This document shows, piece after piece, positions 27,842 through 52,009 of a stretch of 64,000 nucleotides of DNA (within the stretch, counting starts at the first letter, position 1; every line of letters begins with the position of its first letter). The translations under genes and the position numbers were made by a program. Origin of the DNA: Tolypothrix sp. PCC 7910 (GTDB lineage: Bacteria; Cyanobacteriota; Cyanobacteriia; Cyanobacteriales; Nostocaceae); assembly GCF_011769525.1 (NCBI RefSeq), contig NZ_CP050440.1, positions 745,501 through 809,500 of the forward strand, given 5' to 3'. The notes beneath the pieces were generated by a model. That model searched no databases. It worked only from the letters and a program-made list of their open reading frames with translations, and was not told the origin of the DNA.

Positions 27842-30259
27842 CTAAACTATGTTTGCTGTTTCTAATTTAGACTTACTCACACCCAAATCATTAGTACGAG
27901 GTTCTTCCACATCAGACGAAAGAACAACTACTTCAGTCTCTACTTCTATAGAAGTTGCTGCAACATTAATTGCTTTGGATTTATGACTACGTTCTTGTAA
28001 TCGCTTTTCTTCCTCAGCAATTTCAGCTGCACTTAACTGATGTCCTAGTGGCATAACTTCACCAGGGCCGATCAGCGGACGTAGACCATTGAGTTCTGCC
28101 AGGATTGCAGTACCGTTGTTGATTACTACCGCTAAAAGTGGGTCAAGAGCGAAGAAAATACCGGAGATCAACGCACCTAAGTTGGGAACTGCCACAATCA
28201 TGGTGTTCTGCCAAATAATATCCATTGCTTGACGCGCACATTTAACTGCCATGATTAAGCCGCGCAGGTCATCTTCCATCAGTACCACATCGGCTGTTTC
28301 TCTAGCGATATCGGTGGCACCTGCAAAGGATATTGAGGCATCGGCGTAAGCCAAAGCGGCAGAGTCATTAATACCATCGCCGCAGAATGCCACAACTTTA
28401 CCACTGTCGTGCAATCCTTTAACTACTTCTACTTTCTTTTCTGGGAAAGCTTCAGCAGTGACGTGATTGGGATGGATGCCGAGATTATTGGCGATAGAGT
28501 GAGCAACCCGTGTCACATCACCTGTGAGCATATGCACAGTAATGCCCATCTCCTTGAGTTCGCGGATGACTTCTTTGCTTTCTGGACGTGGTGGATCACT
28601 GTAACGGATCACGCCAAGTAGTCTACCATCACCTGCTACGTAAACTAGGGATTGACCGCCTGATTTGGCATCGGGATAGCGAATGTCGTATTCCTCCAAA
28701 TCCACGTTTTCTTGCTTCATGAATCGGGGGCTACCGACGATGATATTCATACCGTCGATTTTTGCTACAGCACCCAGACCAACTTTATATTCCCACTCTT
28801 CACATTCTTTGAGGGCAACGCCTGTATCTTTAGCGTGATGAACGATCGCCTCAGCAATGGGATGGGTTAGACCTTTCTCAGCACTAGCCGCATAACACAA
28901 AATTTCATCTTTGGTGAAGCGGACTTCCATCACATCAATATCATTGACACCTGCATGGCCAATAGTGAGTGTTCCTGTCTTGTCGCAAACAACGGTGTCA
29001 ATGGTCGCTAACATTTCAATAGCGCGACCACTACGGATCAGTACGCCATTGCGAGCAGCATAGGTGAGAACTGACAAAATTGTCGTCGGTACAGAAACCC
29101 GAATACCTGTACCAAAGTCTAAAGTGAGTAGTGCGATCGCTCGGCTGAGGTTGCCGCTAAAAATACCCACACCTGTACCAATTAGCAAGGTGGGAATTAC
29201 CATTTGGTTTGCCACTGTTGCTGCATAGTTCTCAACCCTTGTATCATGCACAGGTGCAGCTTGCATCAGGTTGACAATCACACCAGCACGAGTATTGTTG
29301 CCAACTCGTTCTGACAGGATGGTTAATGTACCATCGACCAATAAGGTAGAAGCAAAGACTTCTTCTCCGATTGTGCGTGTTACAGGTACTGATTCACCTG
29401 TAAGTTTGCACTGGTCAATAATCCCTGTCCCTTCTACAACAACGCCGTCAACGGGAATCTGGTCTCCAGGATAGACTATGACATGATCGCCGACAATCAC
29501 ATCTTGAGTGGGAATCTCTACAACTTGTCCATCGCGGATGACAAAGGCAGTCTTGCTCAAGCAATCTAAAAGGTCGAGAGATGCTCTCTCACTACCCCTC
29601 GCCGTCATATCTCGGATGGCTTCGCCTCCTTCTACCAGACCTAACATGAAGGATGGAGCAAAGAAATGTCCTGTTGCTGTGTGCAACGCGATCGCTAAAC
29701 CATCCAAGAAGTCAATAGTTAATTGGCGCTCTTCTTGAATAGCATCCCAGGCTCGTTTGAATACTGGAATTGCACCAACAAATACAACAGCTCCAATCAA
29801 AACAGGAGGAATTGGCAGCCCAATCATTGCACCCAAACTGAGTACTAAACCTGCGACAGGAAAGCCTAGACGTTCTACAAAGTCTACTTCGTTGTTAGCT
29901 TTTTCTTTCTCTTCACCAGTCCATCCTACAGGAACTTCAGCAGTCGCAGCCTGCTGAATCGCACTAAACAATTTCTCTTGAATAGTAGCGATTGCGATCG
30001 CAGTTGGCTTGTGCTCGTAGTTAAGAATTAACGAACTAGCTTTAGCGTTAATTTGAACTTCCGTTGCAAAATCTAATTTACCCAGAACATACTTTAGCTG
30101 TTGAGCATATTCTTCATCCCAGGCAAGTTGGGGAATGCGAATGCGAAACCGCCCCGGAACCCAATGAACTACCTCGTAATGTATAGCTTCAGCGTGACTT
30201 AACGGATAAGTCTCAATAACGGTTATAGCAAGCTTTTCAGCAGTGGTTTGACCTGACAT
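27842..30259 (-). CDS. HMA2-domain P-type ATPase without CPx motif, apparently catalytic
   Basis: 805-aa membrane ATPase. An N-terminal HMA2-like domain (VHWVPGRFRIRIPQLAWDEE through INAKASSLILNYE, ~28-82) replaces the CxxC metal domains. Catalytic motifs are complete: TGES 287-290, DKTGTLT 426-432, THP 465-467, TGD 579-581, GDGIND 627-632. The helix before the P-domain reads DFGTGIRVSVPTTILS where P1B pumps have CPC/SPC, so the usual transition-metal site is absent; C-terminal membrane helices contain DPLLAVVINNGTAILAELNG. The ion is unknown; relatives are the CtpE/CtpI-like and unassigned cyanobacterial pumps. The C-terminal 80 residues are polar. It leads an apparent operon with the Usp gene. 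Confidence 0.88.
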   Translation of the reverse strand: MSGQTTAEKLAITVIETYPLSHAEAIHYEVVHWVPGRFRIRIPQLAWDEEYAQQLKYVLGKLDFATEVQINAKASSLILNYEHKPTAIAIATIQEKLFSAIQQAATAEVPVGWTGEEKEKANNEVDFVERLGFPVAGLVLSLGAMIGLPIPPVLIGAVVFVGAIPVFKRAWDAIQEERQLTIDFLDGLAIALHTATGHFFAPSFMLGLVEGGEAIRDMTARGSERASLDLLDCLSKTAFVIRDGQVVEIPTQDVIVGDHVIVYPGDQIPVDGVVVEGTGIIDQCKLTGESVPVTRTIGEEVFASTLLVDGTLTILSERVGNNTRAGVIVNLMQAAPVHDTRVENYAATVANQMVIPTLLIGTGVGIFSGNLSRAIALLTLDFGTGIRVSVPTTILSVLTYAARNGVLIRSGRAIEMLATIDTVVCDKTGTLTIGHAGVNDIDVMEVRFTKDEILCYAASAEKGLTHPIAEAIVHHAKDTGVALKECEEWEYKVGLGAVAKIDGMNIIVGSPRFMKQENVDLEEYDIRYPDAKSGGQSLVYVAGDGRLLGVIRYSDPPRPESKEVIRELKEMGITVHMLTGDVTRVAHSIANNLGIHPNHVTAEAFPEKKVEVVKGLHDSGKVVAFCGDGINDSAALAYADASISFAGATDIARETADVVLMEDDLRGLIMAVKCARQAMDIIWQNTMIVAVPNLGALISGIFFALDPLLAVVINNGTAILAELNGLRPLIGPGEVMPLGHQLSAAEIAEEEKRLQERSHKSKAINVAATSIEVETEVVVLSSDVEEPRTNDLGVSKSKLETANIV

Positions 30260-31186: not shown

Positions 31187-31203
31187 ATTTATCCTCACTT
31201 TAA

Positions 31204-32574
31204 CTAGTGCTGAGTTGTCATTTGTGATTCTCCTTGCCTTACACTAGAACAGACCACTCGAAAACCAATACCACTACCCGCGTGATCGGCTTTATCCCAA
31301 TGGCGTTGAGCAGAACGACAAAGGCTTGGTAGACAATACCAAGAACCACCCCGCAACAGGCGATGCTCTTGAAGTTCTGCTTGCTCCCAAACGCTACCAT
31401 CACAGGGAGCTTGTTGATAGTTGGCATGCCAAACATCGGCACACCACTCCCATACGTTGCCATGCATATCGCATAGTCCAAATGCGTTAGCAACTTGAAA
31501 ACTTCCTACTGGTACTGTTCGTTGGCGATATTGACCTACAGGTTCTAGGTTGTAGATATAACTACCGTCATAATTGGCTAGTTCGGGTGTAATCGTTTCC
31601 CCAAAATGGAAAGGTGTTGTTGTTCTGGCGCGACAGGCGTACTCCCATTCTGCCTCGCTTGGTAAGCGATAATCTCGTCTGGTGAGTTTGGTTAGTCGGG
31701 CACAAAATTCGATCGCATCGTGCCATGAAACTTGTTCTACAGGTTGGTTTTCGCCTTTAGTATGGGCTGGATCAGGATTGAGAGAGCGATTAATAGATGG
31801 TAAATTTGCGATCGCCCGCCATTGTGCCTGAGTAATTGTAAATCTTCCCATACAGAAAGGCTCAATTGTTACCTGATGCAGAGGTTCTTCGTGACTTTCT
31901 CGCCCTTGTTCTGTCTCTTTTGAACCCATCCAAAAGACACCCCCTGGCAGGATAATCATATCTAAAGCAACGTTCTCTAGTTCTTCCTGGAAGTAGTGAA
32001 CTTCACTGCCATAACAACTAGCCAGTTGTCCCTGTGTATCAACAGTCACTACCTGAAAAATCAAAGTTTGCACCTTGATTGGTAAAGCTGTTGCAATTTG
32101 GGACTGTTCCAGTTCTAAAGGAGTTTGAGCTTGAGATTCGGCTTCAATGAGTTCCGGTGTTGGAGATTGAACTTGTAGTTGATTTGTTTGCTCTAGTTGT
32201 CTTTGTAAGTCACTTAATTCATGGTTTAACTGGTCTGATTTGGAAACCAGATTTGCTAAATCTGATTCTCGATGTTGTAAGGTAGCTAGAAGTTTCTGAC
32301 ATTGTTGGTTTGCTTGCTCTAACTCAGAATGGAGTTGAGCTATGGTTTGGTCTGCTTCTTGCAGCTGAGACTGAAATTGCTGGACTTGTTCGCGAGCAGG
32401 TTTGAGCATTGCCCAGATCTTTTGTGCCCATTCCAATCTCGCCTGCTCTTTCAAGGAGACTTCTGGAATCAGCGCTATGACCAAAGAGTGCGCTTGGAGA
32501 TTCCAACCACACAGTGAGCAATTCTCGGTTTGATCTGCGACGTATTCAGTTTGGCAAACAGGACATCGAGGCAT
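31204..32574 (-). CDS. FGE/SUMF1-domain protein with N-terminal zinc ribbon and coiled coil
   Basis: 456 aa. An N-terminal zinc ribbon (Cys4-x2-Cys7 ... Cys19-x2-Cys22) is followed by a Gln/Leu-rich coiled coil (~45-135), then a formylglycine-generating-enzyme-like domain from about residue 195: MIILPGGVFWMGSKETEQGR, EQVSWHDAIEFCARL, RLPSEAEWEYACR, GNVWEWCADVW, LLRGGSWYCLPSLCRSAQR, GFRVV. Cys414 and Cys419 occupy the positions of the two copper-binding cysteines of true FGEs; many bacterial SUMF1-like proteins have Asn at the first. It may therefore be a real oxidase acting on a cysteine, or a binding domain of unknown role. No sulfatase is in the window. Next gene is the Nif11 protein. Confidence 0.85.
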   Translation of the reverse strand: MPRCPVCQTEYVADQTENCSLCGWNLQAHSLVIALIPEVSLKEQARLEWAQKIWAMLKPAREQVQQFQSQLQEADQTIAQLHSELEQANQQCQKLLATLQHRESDLANLVSKSDQLNHELSDLQRQLEQTNQLQVQSPTPELIEAESQAQTPLELEQSQIATALPIKVQTLIFQVVTVDTQGQLASCYGSEVHYFQEELENVALDMIILPGGVFWMGSKETEQGRESHEEPLHQVTIEPFCMGRFTITQAQWRAIANLPSINRSLNPDPAHTKGENQPVEQVSWHDAIEFCARLTKLTRRDYRLPSEAEWEYACRARTTTPFHFGETITPELANYDGSYIYNLEPVGQYRQRTVPVGSFQVANAFGLCDMHGNVWEWCADVWHANYQQAPCDGSVWEQAELQEHRLLRGGSWYCLPSLCRSAQRHWDKADHAGSGIGFRVVCSSVRQGESQMTTQH

Positions 32575-36323: not shown

Positions 36324-36445
36324 TAGAACTTTACAATTTAATTCCAAAGGAAGTGTAAAGAAAGATTACTATAGTTGTTGTTTTGCTATATTTTCTATAG
36401 TATCCATAAAAAATATATCCCTACTTAAATTATTTGGTAGCTTTT

Positions 36446-37786
36446 ATGTCTTTTATTGCCATTGATAGGGTTAGTATCCAGCCCAACAGGCGTCCTCTGA
36501 ACGACCAAAAAGTTGCTGAGTTGATGCAATCGATTAAGGCGAACGGACTCTTGAACCCTATAACCCTCGATCAAAATTTCAATCTAGTTGCAGGGTTACA
36601 CCGCCTAACTGCTTGCAAGCTTTTGGGGCTGGAACAGATTGAATACCGGATTATTGCTTATCAAGATGTAGACCATGCCAGATTGGCTGAAATCGATGAA
36701 AACCTCATTCGTAATGAACTAGAAGCCTTAGAACGAGCTGAACTCTGGCTAGAGAGAGACCAAATTTTAGAGCGGATAGGTTTGCGTGCTCAATCTGGAG
36801 AGAACCAATACACCAAAAAAGGGGGTGAATCAATTTCACCCCCTCCTAAAACGACAGTACAACTAGCTCAAGAAGCAGGTTATAACAAGCGGACATATCA
36901 ACTAGGCAAGCAAATTGCTAAAAATATTGACCCTGAAGTTAAGGAGGTGATTAAGAAAACACCTATTGCCAAAAGTCACTCAACTTTGCTAAAAATAGCC
37001 AGAGCGGGTAGTAAAGAGCGAGAGCAGGCAGAACAGGCAGAACAAAAAGCACAAGAAGCAAAACATCAGCAAAAGCAAGAAGAAATGGAAACACAAGCTA
37101 AGTTAGCAGCAGAAGCTAGAACTAAGCTCAAAGAAAAGCAGTTGATTGCACTACAAAGCTCTACTGCTCAAAAGCAGGCAAAACAGTCTATAAGATCTGC
37201 TAGGACACAAGTTGAAAAAAAAATCAATACTACTCCAATTCTACCGGGGGCAGAGTTAGGAGATGAGTGGATACTTGGTAGGCATTTAATTTACTGTGGT
37301 GATACGGCTGAGGATAAATTTATTGGACTTCTGCCTTCCAATGCCGCTTTAGCGATCGCTACTCTTTCATTTGAGTGGAATCATGATTATCTCATCGATG
37401 AAGCTCACATCGTCGCTGTGCTAGCTCGTGAAGGACATATCCAAGATTTTTGTGCTCGCCATCGTATGCCCTTTAGATTTGAGTGGGTCTTGGGTGAATT
37501 ATACGTCGGGATTTACTCTCAAGATCCCATTCTCAAACCAGAGAAGCCTGTTGGTATTGAGGGTGTAGAAGGAATTGTTGCTTATTTAATCAGTTTGTAT
37601 ACAAAACATGATAACTTTATACTTACACCTTCTTTGGGTCACGCCGAAGTACTAATTGCCTGTGAACGGATGGGACGCATCTGCTTTGCTGGTGACAAAG
37701 CCACAGAGAATGTTGATCGAGCGATCGCTCGGTGGCAAAAGTGGACAGGACAAGAAGCGAAAAAAGAAAAACACTGTTATACGTAA
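36446..37786 (+). CDS. ParB-like protein with C-terminal degenerate DNA-methyltransferase domain
   Basis: 446 aa from ATG 36446; a TTG at 36434 is an alternative. Residues 1-110 form a ParB/sulfiredoxin-like domain: IQPNRRPLNDQKVAELMQSI, NGLLNPITLDQNFNLVAGLH, RLTACKLLGL, with DENLIRNELEALERAE. A helix-turn-helix region (VQLAQEAGYNKRTYQLGKQI) and a long Gln/Glu/Lys-rich coiled coil (~190-260) follow. The last 170 residues resemble N6-adenine methyltransferases fused to ParB (GRHLIYCGDTAED; LIACERMGRICFAGDKATEN; ARWQKWTG), but the catalytic DPPY position reads ATLSFEW and the SAM loop is PSLGHAEVL instead of GSGTTL. Probably a DNA-binding protein with an inactive methylase fold. Confidence 0.8.
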   Translation: MSFIAIDRVSIQPNRRPLNDQKVAELMQSIKANGLLNPITLDQNFNLVAGLHRLTACKLLGLEQIEYRIIAYQDVDHARLAEIDENLIRNELEALERAELWLERDQILERIGLRAQSGENQYTKKGGESISPPPKTTVQLAQEAGYNKRTYQLGKQIAKNIDPEVKEVIKKTPIAKSHSTLLKIARAGSKEREQAEQAEQKAQEAKHQQKQEEMETQAKLAAEARTKLKEKQLIALQSSTAQKQAKQSIRSARTQVEKKINTTPILPGAELGDEWILGRHLIYCGDTAEDKFIGLLPSNAALAIATLSFEWNHDYLIDEAHIVAVLAREGHIQDFCARHRMPFRFEWVLGELYVGIYSQDPILKPEKPVGIEGVEGIVAYLISLYTKHDNFILTPSLGHAEVLIACERMGRICFAGDKATENVDRAIARWQKWTGQEAKKEKHCYT

Positions 37787-38141: not shown

Positions 38142-38444
38142 ATGGCATTTATTAAAGTTGGTAATATGATCATTAATACCACTTACATTGCTGCTATCAG
38201 GCTAGAAGGTCAAGACACCTTTGGAGAGGAGAAAGTTTCTTTATTAATTGCAATCCCTACTTTTCCTCTGAATCAGCAAGAAAAGACCTCTACCACTTCT
38301 ACTAATTTTTATCAGTATGAATGGGTCGAATTTCATGGTTTTGCTGCCATTGCTCTGCAAGACTACTTCAGCAGCTTTAACAATGTGATTGATTTAATGC
38401 CCCAAAATAACCGACGAGTGCTATCCAATTCTAAGGAATGTTGA
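38142..38444 (+). CDS. Hypothetical protein, 100 aa
   Basis: The N-terminus MAFIKVGNMIINTTYIAAIRLEG looks like a strand-rich domain used by small cyanobacterial proteins; it is followed by VSLLIAIPTFPLNQQE and a Phe/Tyr-rich segment (NFYQYEWVEFHGFAAIALQD). No signal peptide or membrane helix is evident. Its ribosome-binding site is weak. No family recognised; retained because codon content and length are reasonable. Confidence 0.5.
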   Translation: MAFIKVGNMIINTTYIAAIRLEGQDTFGEEKVSLLIAIPTFPLNQQEKTSTTSTNFYQYEWVEFHGFAAIALQDYFSSFNNVIDLMPQNNRRVLSNSKEC

Positions 38445-38584: not shown

Positions 38585-39280
38585 CTAAGGCATAATGAAA
38601 TATTCATACACCCCAGTAATGATAACTAGAGCTGCTGAAAGGATACCAGCCCAAAGTCCAGATATCTTGGTCGTAAAGCGATCGCCTAGAAAGTACCCGC
38701 CTGATATTCCCAACAAGCTAAGGATAAAAACTAAAAAGGTGGTAATAGCCACATTTAAGTTAGAAATTCCGCCACCCAATCCTGAACCTAGATTATTGAG
38801 AGTCAAGCCAAATGCCAGAGCAATAGATTCTCGCACATCAATATAACCTGAGTGGTCTAAATCTGCTTTTTCAGGATCTTCCAAGAATTTTTCGTAAGAA
38901 AATTCGTGCAAGAATTCTTGTGAAGCATCACTGTGGGAGCTATTAGATATCGCCCGGTTTGAACCTGCTGCAACTAAAAATCTCATTTCTTGACGCATCT
39001 TGACTTTTCTGTGTTGGCGTTTGAGTGTTTTCCAAATACTCCAAATTCCCACGGCTATCAAGATAAAGCTACCTAAGGCATTGGCGACATTTACAGACAA
39101 GTAATTTTTAATGTCATTGCCGACGGAAATCGCCAGATATGTGCCGGATGCGGAGATTAAACCAATAAATAGGTTAGTTAGCCAGCCGATTTGGAGTTTT
39201 TTAATTCCGTAAGCGATACCAACCGCAAAATTATCGACGTTAGCCGCGATCGCAAGTAATAGAGCAGATAGGATATGCAT
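38585..39280 (-). CDS. YtaF/MntP-like membrane transporter with EF-hand loop
   Basis: 231-aa protein with six hydrophobic segments in two repeats: MHILSALLLAIAANVDNFAV-GIAYG and SIALAFGLTLNNLGSGLGGG carry the paired Asn/Asp signatures (ANVDNF, LNNLG) of the YtaF/MntP family, putative Mn2+ exporters. The central cytoplasmic loop contains a textbook EF-hand sequence, D-L-D-H-S-G-Y-I-D-V-R-E (140-151), which suggests Ca2+ or Mn2+ sensing; a related motif is usual in YtaF proteins. It is the last of three same-strand genes with gaps of about 40 bp (two DUF1345 genes before it). Confidence 0.8.
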   Translation of the reverse strand: MHILSALLLAIAANVDNFAVGIAYGIKKLQIGWLTNLFIGLISASGTYLAISVGNDIKNYLSVNVANALGSFILIAVGIWSIWKTLKRQHRKVKMRQEMRFLVAAGSNRAISNSSHSDASQEFLHEFSYEKFLEDPEKADLDHSGYIDVRESIALAFGLTLNNLGSGLGGGISNLNVAITTFLVFILSLLGISGGYFLGDRFTTKISGLWAGILSAALVIITGVYEYFIMP

Positions 39281-39319: not shown

Positions 39320-39979
39320 TTACATCAGTCCAGAAACAATACTGATCCCTAGAGTGAGAATGACGCTGTAGAAAAAGAATGACATAACTGTATGTCCTAA
39401 AACTAATCGTCGCATAGCAGATGTAACAATCGCTGTGTCAGAAGTTTGGGAGGTCATTCCCAAAGTAAATGTGAAATACATAAAGTCCAAATAGTCAGGC
39501 TGTTCTCCACTGGAAAAATCTAGCCCTCCTATATATTCTGCCTCTGGAGCAAAAGAATGCTTACGGTAATAAAATGCAGCATAATGCAGCGCAAAAGTAG
39601 TGTGCATCAGCAGCCAAGAACAGATAATTGCCACTATGGACAGCCCAACTTCAGGAGTAAAACTATCTTTATGTTTTGCTAGCACGGCTGCAATAATAAA
39701 CAAACTAGCAAAAGCTATAAAAACAATCAAAATAAAAATTGCCAGATGGTCAATTTCCTGTCGCTGTGCGCGATCGCGTGTCTGTTCATGATTCGCGCCA
39801 ATCATCATTAAACCCACTAGTATTAGAAAACATAAAATTCCCGTATCCCAAGCAGTAAGCAGGCGCAATTCCAAGCTTGCAGGCGATATCAACAGAAAAA
39901 CGACCCCAGCTAGTACCAATGATAACAGCAAACGAGATTTGGAATTTTCAATCGGACTAAGTAAAATGCGAAATTCCAT
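39320..39979 (-). CDS. DUF1345 membrane protein (copy 1)
   Basis: 219 aa from ATG 39979, with about five membrane helices. The family signature is clear: ALHYAAFYYRK, then GGLDFSSGEQPDYLDFMYFT, FTLGMTSQTSDTAI, MRRLVLGHTVMSFFFYSVIL. Function of DUF1345 proteins is not established; the DYLDFMYFTFTLGMTSQTSD segment recalls a pore helix of channels but that is speculation. It lies between a paralogue and the YtaF-like gene in one operon. Confidence 0.85.
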   Translation of the reverse strand: MEFRILLSPIENSKSRLLLSLVLAGVVFLLISPASLELRLLTAWDTGILCFLILVGLMMIGANHEQTRDRAQRQEIDHLAIFILIVFIAFASLFIIAAVLAKHKDSFTPEVGLSIVAIICSWLLMHTTFALHYAAFYYRKHSFAPEAEYIGGLDFSSGEQPDYLDFMYFTFTLGMTSQTSDTAIVTSAMRRLVLGHTVMSFFFYSVILTLGISIVSGLM

Positions 39980-40016
39980 AACTTTTTCTACCAATGATCA
40001 TCATCAATTCACCGCT

Positions 40017-40790
40017 TTAAATCAGCCCCGATGCCACATTTACGCTCGAAGCTAAAATCACCATGTAGAAGAAAAAAGAAATCATTGCATGTCCTATAGC
40101 AAACCTTCGCATTCCCAAGCCTGGAAGCGAAACATCTGAGGTTTGAGCTGTCATGCCGATAGTAAAAGAGAAATACATAAAGTCCCAATAGTCAGGTAAC
40201 TCATCCCCTGGAAAACTCAAGCCGCCAACATATCCTGTCTCCTCGTTCAAGAAATCTGGATAGTAGTAGCAGGTGGCATAGTGAAGCGCAAACATAGTGT
40301 GAGTAAGAAACCAAGAACAGATCACAGCTACTAAAGACAGCGCAATTTGCAATGCTAAGGTAGATTCTGGAATATTTTTGCTGTCGTTAATTGCTTGCAT
40401 TAGCCCAATCGCAAAGATACTTGTACAGGCAGTAATGACCACTAAAAGAAAAACAGCTAAATGTTGAGCTTCTTGACGTTGAGCGCGATAAAGCGTTTTT
40501 TGGTGAGTTGCACTGCACATCATCAACACTACTAATGCCAAAAAGCAGAAAACTCCTAAAATCCAAGCTGTGAGAATGCGATTGGCTAAATGCATAGTAT
40601 TTGGCAATCGTAAGAAAACTGTCATTGCCAACATAATACTTAAGCCCAGGCGGGTTTTTGAATCTAAATGCGAAAGCAAACTATGCCCAAATAAAAGACC
40701 ACTCATCAATACTCTACTCTTCGACCTCAGAGAAGATTTAGTATTTTGATGAGGTTGAGGATCGGATGTGTTGTGTTGTGTAGTTTTCAC
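40017..40790 (-). CDS. DUF1345 membrane protein (copy 2)
   Basis: 257 aa from GTG 40790. Paralogue of the next gene: FALHYATCYYYPDF, GGLSFPGDELPDYWDFMYFS, FTIGMTAQTSDVSL, MRRFAIGHAMISFFFYMVIL. It has an extra polar N-terminus (residues 1-30). A tandem duplication produced the pair; they are separated by 37 bp and are probably cotranscribed with the YtaF-like gene. Function unknown. Confidence 0.85.
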   Translation of the reverse strand: MKTTQHNTSDPQPHQNTKSSLRSKSRVLMSGLLFGHSLLSHLDSKTRLGLSIMLAMTVFLRLPNTMHLANRILTAWILGVFCFLALVVLMMCSATHQKTLYRAQRQEAQHLAVFLLVVITACTSIFAIGLMQAINDSKNIPESTLALQIALSLVAVICSWFLTHTMFALHYATCYYYPDFLNEETGYVGGLSFPGDELPDYWDFMYFSFTIGMTAQTSDVSLPGLGMRRFAIGHAMISFFFYMVILASSVNVASGLI

Positions 40791-41614
40791 AGTTTTGACA
40801 TCTCACTATTTTTCCCAATATGAAATGCAGTTCTAATAGGTCTTGATTGATATCTGGCTGGGCGATCGCTAACTAATTAGCAAGCTACATTGTTAACACC
40901 AGCTATCGAAAAGCCTATTAAACTCAGTAAATTGCTTGTCTATTACAATTACGGCATTTTGATGATACATCAATGCCGAGATTACTTAATAGCGCTTGGT
41001 CTTCACTATGACAGAAGAGTACAAAATCTGGTTACTCTTTAGAAAATTATATGCTGTGAGCTTCAAAATAACAAAGCTATCTCAACTGATTTTTACTTAG
41101 CATTACATTAATCACATCAATTATCAATCATTATTGATGACATACCAAAAAGCTATTAATTTTAGCTGATTTGAGAAGTTATATCACCATTAACATTGTG
41201 CCATCAATACTGGGGATATAGCACTTTGAGCGATCACCACGGATGATATATACCTAACAAGACTACTAGTATTATTAAGTAAAATTAATATTTACTGTAA
41301 TATGTATAGGTATACTGACTAATATTTTTATACTTAACAATTTTTCATTGATAGAGCATTATAATTACTTGTATCATTGGTAAGTATGGATGTAGAATCA
41401 AATTCAAGAAGAGATTCTTCCTACCTGCTAATATATTTCGTCTAACCGCCGTCAAGGTTGAGCAGTATTCTGTTTCCATTTTTCAATACATGGTTTAATA
41501 AGGTAAAGCCAACTCAGACTTGATGATATTTGGAAATCAATACCGTCATCTGTAGCGTATGGTGGCGAATACGAATCATGATTAGCGATATACCTTTTTT
41601 GGAGGATATTGAGA
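40791..41614. other. Gene-free stretch
   Basis: About 820 bp of AT-rich DNA between divergent genes. No frame with a ribosome-binding site and no strong hairpin was found; it probably carries the promoters of the DUF1345 operon and the 41615 gene. Confidence 0.4.
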
Positions 41615-41926
41615 ATGTTTGAACTAGAAGCTTTATTGTTAGGACTAGAGCCAATGACTGCTGCGGTAATTGGTGTTGGGGCGCTGGCTATTGCACCTAT
41701 CCTTGGTGCTGTAGATGCTGCCACGGGTCACAATTTATCTGACTCAGCGCGATCAACAGCTAAGACTGGATTAATTTGGGCTTTTGAAGCCTTTGACAAA
41801 GTACAAGCTAGTGCTGCTGAAGCTTCCGAATCCTTCCAAGATTTGATAGCAGAAGCTAAATCTGATCTCAGGTCTTCTAAGAATGGCAAAAGTGAAGTAG
41901 CTCCCCGTGAGGTAACGATTGGATAA
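41615..41926 (+). CDS. DUF5132-like small membrane-associated protein
   Basis: 103 aa from ATG 41615, with GGAGGA 8 bp upstream. It opens MFELEALLLGLEPMTAAVIG, followed by a hydrophobic Ala/Gly helix (VGALAIAPILGAVDAATG) and an amphipathic, Ala/Glu-rich C-terminal half ending in ESFQDLIAEAKSDL. This matches cyanobacterial DUF5132 proteins as I know them (start MFELE, late D-L-x-AEA). The role is unknown. It lies among P-type ATPase genes and small membrane proteins. Confidence 0.65.
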   Translation: MFELEALLLGLEPMTAAVIGVGALAIAPILGAVDAATGHNLSDSARSTAKTGLIWAFEAFDKVQASAAEASESFQDLIAEAKSDLRSSKNGKSEVAPREVTIG

Positions 41927-44421: not shown

Positions 44422-45063
44422 ATGAAAAAGTTAATTTCTGGGTTGCATAAATTTCAAACCAATTATTTCAAAGAACACCAAGACTTGTTTGAGCATCTTG
44501 GGCATGAACAGCACCCTAGAGCTTTATTCATTACCTGCTCTGACTCGCGGATTGATCCAAATTTGCTAACTCAAACTGAACCTGGAGAACTTTTTATTAT
44601 TCGTAATGCTGGTAATATCATTCCGCCTTATGGTGCGACTAATGGTGGTGAAGGAGCAGCAGTTGAATACGCAGTTCAGGCTTTAGAGATTAAGCAGATT
44701 ATTGTCTGCGGTCATTCTAACTGTGGAGCAATGAAGGGATTATTGCAATTGGGGAAATTAGCTGATGAGATGCCATTGGTTTATGGCTGGTTAAAACATG
44801 CAGAAGCAACTCGTCGGCTGATTCAAGATAATTATCAGGAGTATGAAGGAGAAGAATTATTGAATGCCACAATTGAAGAGAATGTAATGACCCAATTAGA
44901 AAATTTGCGAACTTATCCAATTATTCACTCTAAACTCCATAAAGGGGAAATTAGCCTTCATGGATGGGTTTACAAGATTGAGACTGGAGGAGTTTTTGTT
45001 TATGGTATGGATCGTTGCAATATCCAGGCAGAGCATGAAGCAGAGCCCGCACCAATTTGGTAA
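44422..45063 (+). CDS. Beta-class carbonic anhydrase
   Basis: 213-aa zinc enzyme interconverting CO2 and bicarbonate. The zinc ligands and dyad are visible: Cys39, Asp41 and Arg43 in ITCSDSRIDP, His98 and Cys101 in VCGHSNCGAMKG. RNAGNIIPPYGATNGGEGAA is the conserved substrate-side segment. There is no signal peptide, so it is cytoplasmic or carboxysome-independent. It is of the CynT-like length, shorter than the carboxysomal CcaA. In this ion-transport region it could serve pH or bicarbonate balance. Confidence 0.93.
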   Translation: MKKLISGLHKFQTNYFKEHQDLFEHLGHEQHPRALFITCSDSRIDPNLLTQTEPGELFIIRNAGNIIPPYGATNGGEGAAVEYAVQALEIKQIIVCGHSNCGAMKGLLQLGKLADEMPLVYGWLKHAEATRRLIQDNYQEYEGEELLNATIEENVMTQLENLRTYPIIHSKLHKGEISLHGWVYKIETGGVFVYGMDRCNIQAEHEAEPAPIW

Positions 45064-45297: not shown

Positions 45298-46506
45298 CTA
45301 ATTCTGCTGAGATTCTTGTTCACCAGACTCGCTGTTAACTATTACTTCTTCCTCAAGTATTTCTATAACAGCCGAGCCAATTTTTTCGCCCATATCTTTA
45401 CCAATTACTCCACCCTCTTCTCCTAACAAAACCTCACCGACTATTTCTCCCATAGTCTCACCAATTTTTCCTCCTATTGTTTCACTCGCCGAAACTTCTA
45501 TTTCTTCTTGCGTTTCTGACTCAGCGTGCTTTTGCGCTTCTGGATGATTGACGTTTTCGGCTTGTTTATCTAAATCCTCTCCTAAGATTGCACCCATGAC
45601 AGTGCCTACTTGTTCACCAACAACCATTCCTATCGGCCCTGCAATTACACCACCTACAGTTTCGCCGACAATTCCTCCGACTATTCCACCTAACACTTCA
45701 CTTCCAACTTTTTCTACTTCCGTCTGCATCCTCTGTTCCTGAAGATTAGACTGATCTGTACTTACCGTTAACTGGGTTGGGCGAAAGATTTTTGAGACAC
45801 TATCATAAGTCCAAGCAATGTTGTTTGGGTCTTTTTTCTGGCTCCACAGGCTAAAGTCCGGTTTTGACTTATATCGGCTTAAAGCTTTAGGATGTACCTC
45901 TAAACGCCTTGCCAAAGCTGATGTTTGCAACGGTGTTACATCAGAATTTACCTGCTGTGTAACAGTGTCTACTAACTCATCCTTGGCTTGGTCGTCTTCT
46001 ATCGTCGATACCTCCGGCGTAGATAAATCTCCTGGGACTTCATCGCTCGGTGGTTCAATTACTGGAGTCGTCTCCTCTTCCCAAGGGTCTTTATCTAGGT
46101 CAACTTGTTCTACACTATAAGCAAACTGCGCTTGTGCAACTCCTGTTGAAACCTCAGGGGATTTCTCTTCTACTGCTAGTTCTGCTGTAGGAGATGGAGA
46201 TGGAGACGGTGAAGAAGTCACTTGTGTAACTTTTGGTTCTGATGCAGGAGGTGCAGACGGGGGCTGTGGAGAAGCTACTTGTGCGATCGCTTCTTGAAGA
46301 TGAGTCTGCATCTCGGTACATGAAACAAACTTATATTTATAAGTGACAATCATTGACTCAGCTAGAGGGTTAATCCGAACATTGGTAACATAGTTCAAGG
46401 ACTCAACCCGCTTTTGCAATTTACTAGCATACTCTGCTTCCTCAGCTAATAAGGGAATCCGGATGCGAATCCGTCCTTCAACAGCATGAACAATTTGATA
46501 ATCCAT
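45298..46506 (-). CDS. HMA2-like domain protein with glycine-zipper tail
   Basis: 402 aa from ATG 46506 (a TTG at 46530 is less likely). Residues 1-75 match the N-terminal domain of the three P-type ATPases here: QIVHAVEGRIRIRIPLLAEE, then VTNVRINPLAESMIVTYKY. A long Pro/Ser/Glu-rich linker follows, then a short basic segment (LARRLEVHPKALSRYKSK) that looks like a small DNA- or peptide-binding helix pair, and a C-terminal glycine-zipper region (GGIVGGIVGETVGGVIAGPI, then GEQVGTVMGAILGED) with very acidic ends. No ATPase core is present. It may be an adaptor that shares a partner with the pumps, or a membrane-inserting protein. Function unknown. Confidence 0.75.
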   Translation of the reverse strand: MDYQIVHAVEGRIRIRIPLLAEEAEYASKLQKRVESLNYVTNVRINPLAESMIVTYKYKFVSCTEMQTHLQEAIAQVASPQPPSAPPASEPKVTQVTSSPSPSPSPTAELAVEEKSPEVSTGVAQAQFAYSVEQVDLDKDPWEEETTPVIEPPSDEVPGDLSTPEVSTIEDDQAKDELVDTVTQQVNSDVTPLQTSALARRLEVHPKALSRYKSKPDFSLWSQKKDPNNIAWTYDSVSKIFRPTQLTVSTDQSNLQEQRMQTEVEKVGSEVLGGIVGGIVGETVGGVIAGPIGMVVGEQVGTVMGAILGEDLDKQAENVNHPEAQKHAESETQEEIEVSASETIGGKIGETMGEIVGEVLLGEEGGVIGKDMGEKIGSAVIEILEEEVIVNSESGEQESQQN

Positions 46507-46660
46507 AGCGGATTTGTCTAATATCAACAATTTTAAGCTGCGGTGAAAAGTTGTGTTCCAAGAATGGAACGCAGTCCGTACATATCCTTTCTGAGGACTT
46601 ATTTAAAGTAGGGACGCAAGACTTTACGCCCCTACTTATCTCTAATTCGTTAAACTTACT

Positions 46661-47130: not shown

Positions 47131-47236
47131 GAATCAGTTAACTAATAGTTAACTAATAGCTAACTGATAAAGACCTCACTCTTCTCGCTAAAGAGTAAAC
47201 TTCAGTCCTTGAAAAAGACATAAGGGCTATGCCTTG

Positions 47237-48340
47237 ATGAGCAGAATTATTACATTTTTAGGCAAGGCGGATACGAGACACACCACACTGGCGATCGCCA
47301 CTGCTAAATGGTTTGCTCAGTATTCTCAAAGGGTGCTACTAGTAACCCACAATCCCAATCCCAGCGCAGAACTGCTGTTAGAAACTTCCCTCAAAGCAAC
47401 TCCTAAAGAGATTGCGCCTAATCTAAGTGTGGTACAGTTGCAAGCAACAGTACTATTAGAACAAGTTTGGGAAGAAGTCAAAAAGTGGTTGGCTCTCTAC
47501 CTCCCGCCCTCTGTAAAAATGGAGATCTATTCGGGAGAGATGATTATCGTACCGGGTTTTGATAGCCTTCTATCCTTCAACGCTCTGCGAAAGTACTATC
47601 AAAGTGAAGACTATGATGTCATCATCTATGATGGGCGGGGAGATTTAGAATCATTGAGAATGCTGGGAATTCCCAACATTGCAGATTGGTATTTTCGTCG
47701 ATTTCGTGAAGCATTAGAATCTCTCGACTTGAGTAAAATCGCCGACTCGATTGGGGGGCCTCTCGCCAGTGCTTTGTTGAGTGCAAATATGGATACTCGA
47801 AAAGTGCAAGATGCGATTGTGCAAATTCAAGATTGGATTGCTAAAAGCGTTGCCGTTGTCGGAGATGCTAAAAGGTTAAGTGCTTATTTAGTAACTACAG
47901 ATGAACCAGCAGCCATCGCTGAGGCTCGTTGGCTTTGGGGTAGTGCACAGCAGGTTGATTTGCGAGTGAGTGGGGTTTTAGCTTATCAAGGTTATGAAGC
48001 GGCTAACAAAACTGAACTAGAGCAAGCTTTTGCTCCTCTGGAAGTTAACATAATTCCAGCGTTGCAAAAACACAATTGGCAACCCCTACTAGATGCACTA
48101 CCAGATTTTAAAACTATTCCTGATGTTCCCCAACCTTTAACAGTTGATTTGGCGCAACGTCAGGTACAAGTATTCTTGCCAGGATTCAGCAAATCGCAAG
48201 TTAAGCTTACCCAGTTGGGTACAGAACTCACGGTTGAAGCAGGTGATCAACGGCGAAATATTGTTTTACCAGACGAACTACGAAATCAGCCAGTTACCGG
48301 AGGCAAATTTGAAGAACCTTATTTGGTGATTTCATTTTAG
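47237..48340 (+). CDS. ArsA/Get3-like protein with degenerate P-loop and C-terminal Hsp20-like domain
   Basis: 367 aa from ATG 47237. The N-terminal deviant Walker A position reads FLGKADTRHTTLAIATAKWF, whereas ArsA/Get3 proteins have GKGGVGKTT and cyanobacterial members usually GKGGTGRTT; the loop glycines and lysine are lost. VIIYDGRGDLESLRMLGIPN occupies the switch region. The C-terminal ~85 residues (RQVQVFLPGFSKSQVKLTQL, TELTVEAGDQRRNIVLP, GGKFEEPYLVISF) form the alpha-crystallin-like ArsA_HSP20 domain. ATP hydrolysis is doubtful. It converges on a CaCA exchanger gene. Could act as a chaperone-like or targeting factor. Confidence 0.82.
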   Translation: MSRIITFLGKADTRHTTLAIATAKWFAQYSQRVLLVTHNPNPSAELLLETSLKATPKEIAPNLSVVQLQATVLLEQVWEEVKKWLALYLPPSVKMEIYSGEMIIVPGFDSLLSFNALRKYYQSEDYDVIIYDGRGDLESLRMLGIPNIADWYFRRFREALESLDLSKIADSIGGPLASALLSANMDTRKVQDAIVQIQDWIAKSVAVVGDAKRLSAYLVTTDEPAAIAEARWLWGSAQQVDLRVSGVLAYQGYEAANKTELEQAFAPLEVNIIPALQKHNWQPLLDALPDFKTIPDVPQPLTVDLAQRQVQVFLPGFSKSQVKLTQLGTELTVEAGDQRRNIVLPDELRNQPVTGGKFEEPYLVISF

Positions 48341-48359
48341 GTTGTGATCCGGTATTTGT

Positions 48360-48390
48360 AGTAGAGACGTTGCATTGCAACGTCTCTACT
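48360..48390. terminator. Perfect palindrome between convergent genes
   Basis: Arms 48360-48374 and 48376-48390 (AGTAGAGACGTTGCA and its complement) form a 15-bp stem. GTAGAGACGTTGCA palindromes are dispersed repeats in Nostocales; here it is positioned as a bidirectional terminator. Confidence 0.7.
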
Positions 48391-48393
48391 GGT

Positions 48394-49479
48394 TTATGGA
48401 TGAAAATAGAATGCTGCTCCTAGAACTGCGTAGGTGATTAGCAGTAAGGCTCCCTCTAGCCAGTTAGAGTTTCCATCTGTGCTGATGGAGTTGGTAATTA
48501 AAACAGCGATCGCCACTGCCAATACTTCAAACGGGTTAAAATCTAGATTCATCGGTTGCCCCATCAACTGACCCACTAACACCAAAATTGGAGCAACAAA
48601 CATCGCAATTTGCAGGCTAGAACCCATCGCCACTGCCACTGATAAATCCATTTTATCTTTCATGGCAAAGGTAGCAGCAGTAATATACTCTACAGCACCT
48701 CCAAAAAGTGGAATCAGAATTACCCCTGTAAATAAACTAGTAAAGCCTAAAGTCGTAATTGCTTTTTCTAAACTGGCAACTAAGACATCAGAAACAAATA
48801 CCAACGCAATGGTACAAATTAGCAAGATAGCAATATTCTTCCACAAAGATGTTTCATGTTGATGAGACTTATCTGCCTGTTCTGATTCATCAAGCTCAGT
48901 AGCTCTAAGTTCATACATATCCCTGTGGGTTTTCATAGAAAACAGCAGCATCAGCAGGTAAAACACTAACAACAAAATTGCCGCAACCGCAGAAAAATTA
49001 TTGATAGTTGTAGCCTGTAATCCTTTAGATGTGAAGTCGATAGCAGTAGGCGTAAGTAGTACTACCAAAGCCAGATTTAGTGAAGAGGCATTAATTCGGG
49101 CTACTTTAGGCTGAAAATTTTGCTCTTTAAAACGTAACCCTCCCAAGAAAATTGCTGCTCCTAGAGCCAGGAGCAGGTTAGCAACGACAGTACCTGTAAT
49201 ACTAGCTTTTACTACCTCCACCAAACCTGCATGAAGGGCAACAATAGAGATAATCATCTCAGTTGCGTTGCCAAAAGTAGCATTGAGCAACCCGCCAAGA
49301 GATGGCCCAACAACAGCAGCAATTTCTTCCGTAGAATTAGCAATCCACGCTGCTAAGGGGATAATTGCTAAACCAGAAATAACGAAAACAATCACAGGAT
49401 GTAAATGCAGCCATTCCGTTATAAAAGAAATGGGCACAAACACTAACATATAAAGCAGAATTTTATCTTTTGTTGTCAT
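48394..49479 (-). CDS. Ca2+/H+ antiporter, CAX type (third copy)
   Basis: 361 aa from ATG 49479, which has AAGGAG 8 bp upstream (a longer frame to 49527 is unlikely). Both alpha-repeats are intact: GGLLNATFGNATEMIISIVA and IPLFGGAVEYITAATFA, each with Glu, followed by KDKMDLSVAVAMGSSLQIAM. It is a close paralogue of 25199-26380. An acidic/His-containing loop (DESEQADKSHQHE) links the halves. Likely Ca2+ efflux driven by H+. Confidence 0.9.
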   Translation of the reverse strand: MTTKDKILLYMLVFVPISFITEWLHLHPVIVFVISGLAIIPLAAWIANSTEEIAAVVGPSLGGLLNATFGNATEMIISIVALHAGLVEVVKASITGTVVANLLLALGAAIFLGGLRFKEQNFQPKVARINASSLNLALVVLLTPTAIDFTSKGLQATTINNFSAVAAILLLVFYLLMLLFSMKTHRDMYELRATELDESEQADKSHQHETSLWKNIAILLICTIALVFVSDVLVASLEKAITTLGFTSLFTGVILIPLFGGAVEYITAATFAMKDKMDLSVAVAMGSSLQIAMFVAPILVLVGQLMGQPMNLDFNPFEVLAVAIAVLITNSISTDGNSNWLEGALLLITYAVLGAAFYFHP

Positions 49480-49666
49480 TTGGCTTACTCCTTGAGAAAT
49501 ACTATAAATAATTTTGATCAATCTCAAATAATGAACTAGGTAGTAGTTATTTACTTACTAATTTTCTTACTTTGGGCGGAGAGTATTTGCCTATTTCAGT
49601 AGAAGGCAACTAAAAGATAATTTTTTACTATTTAAATGTAACTAACAATTATTTTGTTTAAAGATA

Positions 49667-49807: not shown

Positions 49808-49952
49808 TAAAAGCTCAATAAATATTTATTTTTGAGAATAAACAAAAATAGAGATTTGCGTTTATTATGTTATGGCAGACCGTAATTACCCTTAAATGGT
49901 CTGTAGTAAAGAAACAATTTATTCAAATAGAGTCAAGCTAGGGAGAATAAAA

Positions 49953-50084
49953 ATGGATACCATAGTTGTAGTTGCTTTGGTTGGTTACGTTGTTTTATTT
50001 TGTATAGCCTTGTGTGTAGTTCAAGTGTACTTGGAGGAAAGTAGACAAATTGCTAGAAGATATAGAAAAGCCCGTCAGCATTAA
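49953..50084 (+). CDS. 43-residue single-span membrane peptide (tandem member 2)
   Basis: ATG 49953 has GGGAG 7 bp upstream. MDTIVVVALVGYVVLFCIAL forms the membrane helix, and the tail YLEESRQIARRYRKARQH is basic. The arrangement (short N-terminus outside or in membrane, Glu-Glu-Ser/Thr then Ile-x-x-Arg-Tyr) repeats that of the preceding 46-residue peptide. Its size and form recall P-type ATPase helper peptides such as KdpF, but that is comparison only. Confidence 0.6.
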   Translation: MDTIVVVALVGYVVLFCIALCVVQVYLEESRQIARRYRKARQH

Positions 50085-50131
50085 TCTGCTTTCATTATGA
50101 ATTATTGATCAGCCAATTTACCTTGGTTATA

Positions 50132-52009
50132 TCATTGAGTTAAAGGTTGTTGATTCAAGTTTTTACCGTTCAAAATAGGTAAAGGTAACTCGGTAGAAGT
50201 AGCAGGAATAGTCAGAATATTTGTTTTGTGATTATTTTTATGTTGTGATGGCACAATCGAATCAAAAATGGGACGCGAACCATTTAAGAATTCAGCAATA
50301 AATGCCGAGCTATTATTTACAATCACATTCCAAATTGGATTGACACCCAAGACCATACCACCACCAATTTGCATCATCAGGTTGGGAACAACAATTGTTG
50401 CCGTATTTTGGTAAACTACCTCCATTGCTCGTTTAGCGATCGCAATAGCATAAATTAATCCTTGCAATTGCTGATCGAGTAGCACCACATCTGCTGTTTC
50501 TGTACAAACGTTCCCCCTAAAGGCAAGTGAGACAGAAATGTCTGCATGACAATCACCATTTCCCAGCACTGCTACGCACCCTCCTTGGCTGCGGAGTCCA
50601 TCAACCAAGTTTGCTTGTTGTTGGGGATGAGATTCTGCAAGAATATGGTTAGCATGAATGCCAAATTTTTTCGCGAGCATGGTAGTCTTTGCTAAACTAT
50701 CTTCACTGACAAGATAGATAGTAATGCCTTGTTCTTGTAAGGTAGCGATCGCCTGAATACAGTCTGATGCAGTTGTATTTATATACAATAGTGCAGAGTC
50801 ATAAATGACAAGGGTATTTAACTGAGTCAACAACTCCACAACACGACCACTACGGATATAAATGCCATTTTGGACTGCGTAAGTCAAGGCAGAGAGTATG
50901 GTTGTTGAGATAGAAATAGGAATACCACTACCAAAGTCAAACTGAAAAGGAGAAATAGCAGCTCCTAAATTACCTGTTGCAGCGAAAATAGTGCCGCCTA
51001 AAACTAAGGTTGGCACGATGGCATTTTTCACAAACTCTGCTTGTTGTACACCAATATGCGTATCATGCACCGGCGTAGATTGCATCAGATGAGCAATCAA
51101 TCCCAAGCGAGTATTTTCACCCGTCCGTTCTACTGAGATAGATAACTCTCCTTCCAATAACCGAGAAGAGGCATAGATTTCTTGCCCTAAAGAATAATGA
51201 ATAGGTGTATCTATACTTGTGAGGTAAGAGCAATCTACTAAACCACTACCAGAGAGAATCCTACCATCTACAGGAATTATTTCACCAGCATGAATCGTGA
51301 TGCGATCACCCACTTGCAATTCTATTGCTCTGACTGCTGGCTGTAATTGATCACGCTGTACCCAAATATCTTCATGCAAATAATTTAAAAACTCTAGAGC
51401 TTTTTGTTCTCTGGCTTCTTCAACTGTACCGCGCAAGCTTCTACGGATTTCTACTAAACTGGTTTTCAAGGATGGGGCAATATACTGACCTTGGATGACT
51501 TGTAGAGTCATCCACGCCGAGTCTAAAAGATCTATATTAGGATGACGTTGATTAACAATGCTGTCAGCTGCTCGATTGAACCAAGGCATTGCCGCCCCCG
51601 CGATCGCCATTATAATCAACAGAGGTGGTAACTCCAACGGAGCTGCAAATATTGCCAAACTCAGACTGAGCAGAGGTAAACCTAAATCTCTCCATTGGTT
51701 AACTTCTGGAATCAAGTCAGATTCTTCTATCGCTTCTTCATTAGAAGTTTCAATCAAATTTGCTTGTTGAATACAACTCGCCTTTTCAATACAGGTTGAC
51801 AGATATTTTTGGGCATCTTCAAGATTAACCCTACTCACTTTGTAGTCAACAATCAGCGAGCTAGCTGCGGGATTAATGCGAACCTTTGTGACAAACTGCA
51901 ACGACTCAACCAAGCGATTGAGATTTTCAGCAAACTCTAAGTCATCTGCCAGTCTGGGCACACGAATACGGCAACGCCCCTGGGTGCTATGAACGACTTG
52001 ATAAAACAT
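50132..52009 (-). CDS. Degenerate HMA2-type P-type ATPase-like protein lacking catalytic motifs and nucleotide domain
   Basis: 625 aa from ATG 52009 (a longer frame to 52120 adds an unlikely extension). The HMA2-like domain (FYQVVHSTQGRCRIRVPRLA, then INPAASSLIVDYK) and the membrane helices match the 27842 and 33031 pumps, as does the C-terminus (NPIWNVIVNNSSAFIAEFLN). The actuator TGES is TSID (264-267); the DKTGTLT site reads YDSALLY (403-409); the gap from there to the TGD-equivalent VSED is about 30 residues instead of about 150, so the nucleotide-binding domain is deleted; GDGIND is GNGDCH (483-488). The frame is intact throughout, arguing for retained, non-catalytic function. Confidence 0.85.
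   Translation of the reverse strand: MFYQVVHSTQGRCRIRVPRLADDLEFAENLNRLVESLQFVTKVRINPAASSLIVDYKVSRVNLEDAQKYLSTCIEKASCIQQANLIETSNEEAIEESDLIPEVNQWRDLGLPLLSLSLAIFAAPLELPPLLIIMAIAGAAMPWFNRAADSIVNQRHPNIDLLDSAWMTLQVIQGQYIAPSLKTSLVEIRRSLRGTVEEAREQKALEFLNYLHEDIWVQRDQLQPAVRAIELQVGDRITIHAGEIIPVDGRILSGSGLVDCSYLTSIDTPIHYSLGQEIYASSRLLEGELSISVERTGENTRLGLIAHLMQSTPVHDTHIGVQQAEFVKNAIVPTLVLGGTIFAATGNLGAAISPFQFDFGSGIPISISTTILSALTYAVQNGIYIRSGRVVELLTQLNTLVIYDSALLYINTTASDCIQAIATLQEQGITIYLVSEDSLAKTTMLAKKFGIHANHILAESHPQQQANLVDGLRSQGGCVAVLGNGDCHADISVSLAFRGNVCTETADVVLLDQQLQGLIYAIAIAKRAMEVVYQNTATIVVPNLMMQIGGGMVLGVNPIWNVIVNNSSAFIAEFLNGSRPIFDSIVPSQHKNNHKTNILTIPATSTELPLPILNGKNLNQQPLTQ

Follow-up and report, generated by a model that had tools for sequence, protein, structure and literature searches.

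Retention of a catalytically degenerate P-type ATPase paralogue alongside active HMA_2 pumps and Ca/H exchanger genes in cyanobacteria

The window analysed here, meaning the whole stretch of DNA under study, comprises 64,000 nt of Tolypothrix sp. PCC 7910 (assembly GCF_011769525.1, contig NZ_CP050440.1, positions 745,501-809,500, forward strand) and carries three paralogous genes for P-type ATPase-like membrane proteins, named PUMP1, PUMP2 and PSEUDO below. A preliminary description had listed these open reading frames (ORFs), and all of them were found where it had placed them, on the minus strand; the upper limit that it gave, 52009, is a Met internal to the longer third ORF and the likely start of PSEUDO.

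27842..30259, minus strand: PUMP1 (P0001), an HMA_2-domain P1B-like ATPase with the full catalytic motif set; TIGR01525 score 481.5 bits
33031..35334, minus strand: PUMP2 (P0002), a paralogue with GEGIND replacing GDGIND; TIGR01525 score 457.9
50132..52120, minus strand: PSEUDO (P0003), a paralogue without N-domain, TGES, DKTGT and GDGxND; TIGR01525 score 168.6

PUMP1 and PUMP2 are 805 and 767 aa long, and PSEUDO has 662 aa as an ORF or about 625 aa from Met 52009; in the alignment, P0002 is 48% and P0003 37% identical to P0001. The preliminary description had assigned to all three a common N-terminal HMA2-like domain, a common helix order and a C-terminal NP/DP-xxx-V-I-x-N segment, and our results agree with this. 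HMA_2 (PF19991, gathering score 30) was found at the N-terminus of P0001 (36.7) and P0003 (34.4), with P0002 slightly under the threshold (28.4, E 1.9e-6); the alignment backs the helix order, as does an AF2 model in the case of P0003; and the C-terminal segment is present in each protein with small variation. TIGR01525, which is NCBI's model for heavy-metal P1B ATPases, has a curated cut-off of 346; both pumps exceed it and PSEUDO stays under it. The CPx metal motif in M6, a feature of P1B-type ATPases, is absent from all three proteins (VPT/VPS in the pumps, IST in P0003). At the catalytic columns P0003 reads TSID, YDSALL and GN----, and the N-domain, which occupies 122 aa in P0001 and P0002, is reduced to two residues at the same place.

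To find orthologues, we searched 388 cyanobacterial genomes drawn from the class (G codes) and also scanned contigs of named genomes (L codes). Absences in the class-wide searches are uncertain because the best three to five candidates per genome were scored. PSEUDO was present in 26 of the 388 genomes, as 20 long and six reduced forms, and the scan of named contigs yielded 24 PSEUDO loci, including Nostoc sp. FACHB-110, Calothrix, Fischerella, Chlorogloeopsis and Thermosynechococcus. The aligned set comprised 36 PSEUDO, 16 PUMP2 and nine PUMP1 proteins; L131, L132, L135, L136 and L138, which are copies of G-genome contigs with shared sequence, and L137, a 280-aa fragment under the length limit, were left out of the tree and motif counts.

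All motifs were intact in the nine PUMP1 orthologues. PUMP2 orthologues had GEGIND in 15 of 16, DKTGT in 16 of 16 and TGES in 15 of 16, the exception to GEGIND being L141, the earliest branch, which has GDGIND. No PSEUDO protein in the alignment retained the N-domain, KTGT or GDGxND (0/36), and TGES was found in one (L141) and missing from 35, so that no catalytically competent member was seen among them. An A-domain-sized segment was kept in 33/36. The Asp at the phosphorylation column persisted in 27/36 and the remainder of DKTGT in none, which indicates that the loop and the nucleotide machinery were lost and not always the phosphorylation residue itself. The motif states that the preliminary description had read in the three proteins (intact, GEGIND, degenerate) are thus directly visible and preserved across orthologues (9/9, 15/16 and 36/36), and for this reason they are not a matter of chance.

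PSEUDO proteins were monophyletic (36 rows, SH-aLRT support 100 in a quick tree search with no bootstrap), and the clade spans eight family codes. Pairwise dN/dS values (NG86, custom script) were 0.113-0.239 for PSEUDO (15 pairs), 0.135-0.282 for PUMP2 (5 pairs) and 0.096-0.126 for CAX, the Ca/H exchangers (4 pairs). A frameshift or an assembly misreading of P0003 could be rejected, as its 662-aa ORF is uninterrupted and the identical motif state is found in two close relatives (92% and 90-91% identity) taken from other assemblies. Among the 20 long forms there were one split copy (G209) and one contig fragment (G288), and the rest were open. It would be possible to see here three pumps of different substrates, of which PSEUDO is a fading relic (a pseudogene) retained by linkage: its catalytic parts are gone, some lineages become progressively shorter, and one copy is split. 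We consider such decay very improbable, given dN/dS well below 1 in 15/15 pairs, a single old clade over eight family codes and a membrane domain about as conserved as that of the pumps. The preliminary description had named frameshifts, relaxed selection (dN/dS near 1) and degenerate copies without an active paralogue as marks of simple pseudogenes; apart from the split copy and the fragment, none of these was observed. PSEUDO is almost certainly a functional dead paralogue.

Shortened HMA_2 ORFs of other origin were not counted as PSEUDO: the pump of G022 is split across two frames, that of G282 is also split, that of G003 is truncated by the contig end, and the ORF of G378 is a 412-aa deletion form in another pump clade. 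This last one (L178, G378:C116, 4358-5596) belongs to a different kind of HMA_2 pump and carries an internal deletion, which may reflect either a separate reduction event or an error in the assembly.

We compared conservation, as mean top-residue frequency, between the 36 PSEUDO proteins and a set of 36 pumps that contained PUMP1, PUMP2 and further HMA_2 pumps; the means are influenced by the closely related sequences included. The values for PSEUDO and pumps were 0.68 and 0.63 in M1-4, 0.69 and 0.75 in M5-6, and 0.67 and 0.70 in M7-8, and in the cytosolic parts PSEUDO was lower (A-domain 0.50 and 0.69, P-remnant 0.44 and 0.73). The membrane helices of PSEUDO are constrained about as in the pumps, and its A-domain and P-remnant are relaxed. 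Several membrane-part residues have been remodelled: a Gly invariant in the 36 pumps is Arg in 36/36 PSEUDO, residue 219 is Lys in PSEUDO and Met or Thr in pumps, the pump-invariant M6 Arg is Pro or Gln in 36/36, and the pump-invariant M6 Pro is replaced in 34/36. Residues specific to PSEUDO include K219, R226, Q360, Q393 and N598. At the N-terminus, H44, G48, R49, R51 and R81 were invariant in 31 PSEUDO sequences, and the basic ones among them may correspond to the conserved basic face of the CoBaHMA domain. The AF2 model of P0003 (mean predicted local distance difference test, pLDDT, 77.7; 31-sequence alignment) shows an HMA domain, a membrane-helix bundle, an A-domain and a Rossmann-like P-remnant; its top PDB matches were P1B-ATPases, then KdpB, with CopA 7r0g at E 4e-23, TM 0.56 and 17% identity.

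The sequences form a reduction series. L141 still has TGES, most PSEUDO proteins have the A-domain without TGES, and in L139, L140 and L142 (452-564 aa) the A-domain is gone as well. Forms of 403-409 aa, all from one genus (G016, G035, G063 and G106), consist of little besides the HMA domain and helices, and the form of G271 is 520 aa long. The 409-aa form L163 scores 18.9 with HMA_2, below the gathering score; a structure prediction for a 409-aa form made without an alignment had pLDDT 36.5 and was not used.

A bootstrapped tree of 63 rows was then built with 5 of the 16 PUMP2 and 16 of the 41 PSEUDO rows (eight near-duplicates were excluded and three proteins are present twice). It separated a PUMP1-type active clade (21 rows, 18 distinct proteins) from an auxiliary clade (32 rows, support 100/99) composed of PUMP2, PSEUDO and a four-member group that retains the N-domain. 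Support for PSEUDO, with 16 rows including reduced forms, was 97/97; the position of the minimal forms and G271 is unsure because long branches meet there. The four-member group comprises G149 (L187), G186:C27 (L180), G272 (L167) and G094 (L188). In three of them the catalytic Asp is replaced by Ala (ARTGTLT, ARTGNLT, AKTGTLT), and the fourth, G094, has an intact DKTGT with GDSISD. GDGIND was found in 21/21 rows of the PUMP1-type clade and in three auxiliary rows, L141, G007 and G014, among which L141 has the full motif set and the other two are without the M6 Pro. GEGxND cannot be explained on this tree by fewer than three changes, which makes it probable that the D-to-E replacement arose several times inside the auxiliary clade. 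The stepwise loss of catalytic motifs suggested in the preliminary description is supported by both the tree and the intermediates.

A pump in which TGES, DKTGT and GDGIND could be read was present in 26/26 PSEUDO genomes, the active-pump ORF of G016 beginning downstream of the HMA part. The same was true for G149, G094 and G272, which have auxiliary members and in which PSEUDO was not found among the best three to five candidates per genome. In some loci an active gene lies directly upstream of PSEUDO on the same strand: the two overlap in L140, are 120 bp apart in L141 and are adjacent in L139, where an overlap involves the ORF start and the likely Met lies outside it. Each N-domain-retaining degenerate pump likewise has an active pump nearby on the same strand, and here too the degenerate gene is the second of the two: in G094 the genes overlap or abut according to the start chosen, in G186:C27 they are 258 bp apart, and they are found in this order in G149 and, with looser spacing, in G272. 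Separately, a small HMA_2-like protein is encoded after PSEUDO in two loci (L139:3174-3764 and L140:9526-10089), and the L140 copy also matches DUF454 under the cut-off.

Repeated decay within one auxiliary clade, never seen without an active pump, together with the kept HMA_2 domain, might point to a regulatory decoy, in which PSEUDO and the GEGxND paralogue would dimerise with PUMP1 and inhibit it until Ca or pH changes, in the manner of other pseudoenzymes. These observations fit structural support equally and the dimer interface is hypothetical, and we regard such a decoy as distinctly unlikely. A dead paralogue whose membrane part is kept, and whose active pump is always in the genome and sometimes directly upstream, suggests that PSEUDO is a subunit of that pump, and contact between PSEUDO and PUMP1 seems fairly probable to us.

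The preliminary description had recognised the paralogues as one island, which stands, and had overlooked the calcium/carbonate setting of this island. The other genes of the island in the window are as follows.

20374..23211, minus strand: P2A-type Ca-ATPase-like pump, top matches to Ca-ATPase models under their cut-offs; cluster member
23442..23846, minus strand: small conserved ORF with no Pfam family; cluster member
23916..25112, minus strand: CAX_A, Ca/H exchanger (TIGR00378, 229 bits)
25199..26380, minus strand: CAX_B, Ca/H exchanger (TIGR00378, 336 bits)
27271..27774, minus strand: universal stress protein, immediately downstream of PUMP1
31204..32574, minus strand: FGE-sulfatase-domain protein, between PUMP1 and PUMP2
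36434..37786, plus strand: ParB_N-domain protein; conserved cluster
38142..38444, plus strand: small conserved ORF with no Pfam family; cluster member
38585..39280, minus strand: MntP/YtaF-like membrane protein; conserved cluster
39320-39994 and 40017-40790, minus strand: two DUF1345 membrane proteins; conserved cluster
41609..41926, plus strand: DUF5132-like small protein (E 0.0025, under the cut-off); conserved neighbour
44422..45063, plus strand: carbonic anhydrase (Pro_CA, beta type)
45298..46530, minus strand: glycine-zipper protein (P0004) with HMA_2 above the gathering score, a 49-aa module and two glycine-zipper blocks; calcyanin-like; likely Met at 46506
47234..48340, plus strand: NosAFP (Get3/ArsA-fold ATPase, putative tail-anchor factor; NF050088, 501 bits)
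48394..49527, minus strand: CAX_C, Ca/H exchanger adjoining PSEUDO (TIGR00378, 418 bits)

The island is kept in five genomes of four family codes (the window, G186, G115, G211 and G161) and also in named Nostocales. Its kept content includes PUMP1, PUMP2, PSEUDO, Ca/H exchangers, the P2A Ca-ATPase, the HMA_2 protein and NosAFP, as well as the MntP-like, DUF1345, DUF5132, ParB_N and FGE-domain proteins, with the exceptions that the stretch examined for G211 does not include the Ca-ATPase and that G115 and G161 lack CAX_C. The examined stretches of G186, G115, G211 and G161 showed no carbonic anhydrase, and G214 and G288 contain island fragments. Across the 24 named-contig loci, a tally that includes short contigs (flanks below 10 kb) and copies, the genes near PSEUDO were DUF5132 (18), CAX_C (15), ParB (14), PUMP2 (13), NosAFP (12) and carbonic anhydrase (9, at most 10 kb away). 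In L125, L128 and L130 a glycine-zipper protein adjoins CAX_C and PSEUDO; it has three zipper blocks in L128 and two in L125 and L130.

Other genes in the window include an apparent sulfonate/taurine uptake and use cluster at 1263-8840 (ABC transporter, TauD-like and SsuD-like, by eye), a 1109-aa protein with a TPS (two-partner secretion) domain at 12174-15503, and a DDE_Tnp_4 transposase at 16309-17220, which separates the TPS protein from the conserved cluster. The ORF at 58221-62783 encodes 1520 aa that include an nSTAND1 NTPase and WD40 repeats, and the N-terminal part of this protein looks caspase-like by eye.

Calcyanin has three glycine zippers, and its HMA-superfamily domain is named CoBaHMA. 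Five family f40 proteins with glycine zippers, four from the Thermosynechococcus genus code and one from g104, served to build a calcyanin-like model, with which we searched the same 388 genomes. A match over the zipper part was found in 25 genomes, 22 of which contain PSEUDO (table 22/4/3/359, Fisher 8e-29; by genus 10/2/2/146, 1.9e-12). Any match to the model was seen in 29 genomes, and four that matched the HMA part only (G022, G149, G186, G381) were dropped; G000 and G211 are partial matches, the G095 match spans two blocks, G175 has a broken remnant, and the G209 and G214 genes are fragmented. A one-zipper protein of G161 was not counted. Without G000, G211 and G095 the table becomes 20/6/2/360 (p 3e-26). 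The reduced PSEUDO forms were first met in 19 genomes picked mostly for zipper or pump matches, and the model behind the PSEUDO count includes them; the long forms were found independently and by themselves give 16/4/9/359 (p 1e-18; 16 of 20 genomes) and, by genus, 7/2/5/146 (p 6e-8). As a control we took 74 pump-bearing genomes, in which the zipper protein occurred in 22/26 with PSEUDO and in 2/48 without it, the 48 including a few weak matches that are perhaps not HMA_2 pumps (G327, G358, G285) and G175 lying outside the 74; by genus (49 genera) the figures were 10/12 and 2/37 (p 5e-7). Calcyanin-like genes thus track the dead paralogue and not the active pump as such.

This association may be relevant to biomineralisation, as published work links calcyanin (ccyA), as a marker, to intracellular amorphous calcium carbonate (iACC) in cyanobacteria (PMC11773610, PMC12836880). 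Carbonate nucleation at the septum has been reported for the Thermosynechococcus elongatus BP-1 clade (PMC6087745), and a 2025 review mentions possible selective alkaline-earth ion pumps in Gloeomargarita lithophora (PMC12746419). In our scan of named contigs, Thermosynechococcus contributed two PSEUDO loci. That the gene set serves carbonate storage appears to us a reasonable, somewhat favoured proposal.

A 49-aa module with no Pfam family (P0004 residues 203-251; pattern approximately LAxRLxVxxxxLxRxRxKPxFxxWxxxxDPxGxAWxY) was found near the C-terminus of 13 PUMP1 and 14 PSEUDO ORFs (11 without copies), internally in ten HMA_2/GlyZip ORFs (nine without copies) and in one small HMA_2 ORF. The scan matched 38 ORFs, of which three PSEUDO and one HMA_2/GlyZip were copies and some were seeds, and no other ORF of at least 80 aa in the 89 loci plus window scanned contained the module. 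It hints at a common partner, and is no proof of one because it is present in other cyanobacterial ORFs. The hetero-complex, or regulation by the inactive member, raised in the preliminary description has become likelier through the operon-like adjacency and the C-terminal module shared in some cases; the interaction itself is something that we infer.

Taken together, we moderately favour the explanation that PSEUDO is a non-catalytic membrane subunit of the active pump and PUMP2 a second, altered partner, serving Ca/carbonate handling, in which the complex, the substrate and the biomineralisation role stay conditional; calcium as the substrate is suggested by the neighbour genes alone. Several points weigh against this explanation. 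PUMP1 and PSEUDO are about 20 kb apart in the window and not adjacent, and in Thermosynechococcus-like genomes PSEUDO is far from pump genes. P0004 has two zipper blocks and not the three of calcyanin, and no counted calcyanin match was found in the PSEUDO-containing genomes G186, G115, G161 and G288. The genomes are not independent, and relatedness inflates the co-occurrence p-values, which the genus-level counts only reduce. The 49-aa module is missing from PUMP1 and PSEUDO of the window, where only the GlyZip protein has it, and its presence in many other cyanobacterial ORFs makes it weak evidence as a shared trait. PSEUDO might instead be a self-standing membrane protein, such as a channel, a sensor or a calcyanin scaffold acting through HMA_2, with no pump contact. 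Its separation from pump genes in the Thermosynechococcus-like genomes would fit this, as would the minimal 403-409-aa forms, the CAX and glycine-zipper neighbours in L125, L128 and L130, and the remodelled membrane residues. However, an active pump accompanies PSEUDO in 26/26 genomes, and PUMP1 and PSEUDO are directly adjacent or overlapping in L139-L141, so we regard a protein standing on its own as rather unlikely.

If PSEUDO is a subunit of the active pump, an ancestral active pump would have been duplicated, and the duplicate would first have lost its N-domain together with GDGxND and the KTGT part of the phosphorylation loop, and next TGES. The A-domain would then have been lost in two or more lineages, with HMA_2 and the membrane domain staying under selection. 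PUMP1 would burn ATP, which PSEUDO cannot do; the two proteins probably lie packed together in the membrane, where PSEUDO may set the location, stoichiometry or regulation of PUMP1 or form one section of the transport path. PUMP2 would be a further partner with altered catalysis. The set may handle calcium (alkaline-earth) or carbonate together with the Ca/H exchangers, the Ca-ATPase and the calcyanin-like glycine-zipper proteins, the most likely process being iACC storage. We tentatively put forward, as a possibility that we hold with less confidence, that the active pump and the GEGxND pump combine with an obligate dead subunit into a heteromeric transporter for alkaline-earth ions, which together with calcyanin and Ca/H exchange would load a carbonate-storing compartment.

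Among known systems, the P1B-type ATPases ZntA and CopA (4umw, 7r0g) resemble PUMP1 and PUMP2 in fold and catalytic domains and are the best structural matches of PSEUDO. In contrast to them, the pumps described here have no CPx in M6 and take their HMA_2 domain from another family, and PSEUDO is without the N-domain and catalytic motifs. KdpFABC, Na,K-ATPase beta and CDC50 systems also combine a catalytic chain with a non-catalytic membrane partner; here such a partner is proposed from gene adjacency and co-occurrence. To our knowledge, these known non-catalytic partners are not themselves P-type ATPases; the partner proposed here descends from the catalytic chain. Calcyanin/CoBaHMA proteins likewise have an HMA-superfamily domain, perhaps with a comparable set of conserved basic residues, and glycine zippers, and occur in cyanobacteria; calcyanin is not known to be a transporter. 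Pseudokinases and degenerate ABC sites are pseudoenzymes with active paralogues, and the dead copy is retained alongside the active one as it is here. In the open-access literature searched, at the level of titles and the starts of abstracts, we found no description of an N-domain-less P-type partner and no example of a P-type ATPase pseudoenzyme with an active paralogue; the calcyanin/CoBaHMA papers are outside this scope and may mention such pumps.

The non-catalytic pump partner of these cyanobacteria seems to derive from the pump itself, and intermediates are still alive, with the A-domain kept, lost, or the protein reduced to a 403-409-aa minimum. PSEUDO and its pump are concrete candidates for deletion, and PSEUDO may be a missing subunit of carbonate storage. 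If the proposal is true, loss of its ATPase domains would have converted a P-type catalytic chain into a membrane subunit that is obligate and has no catalytic role.

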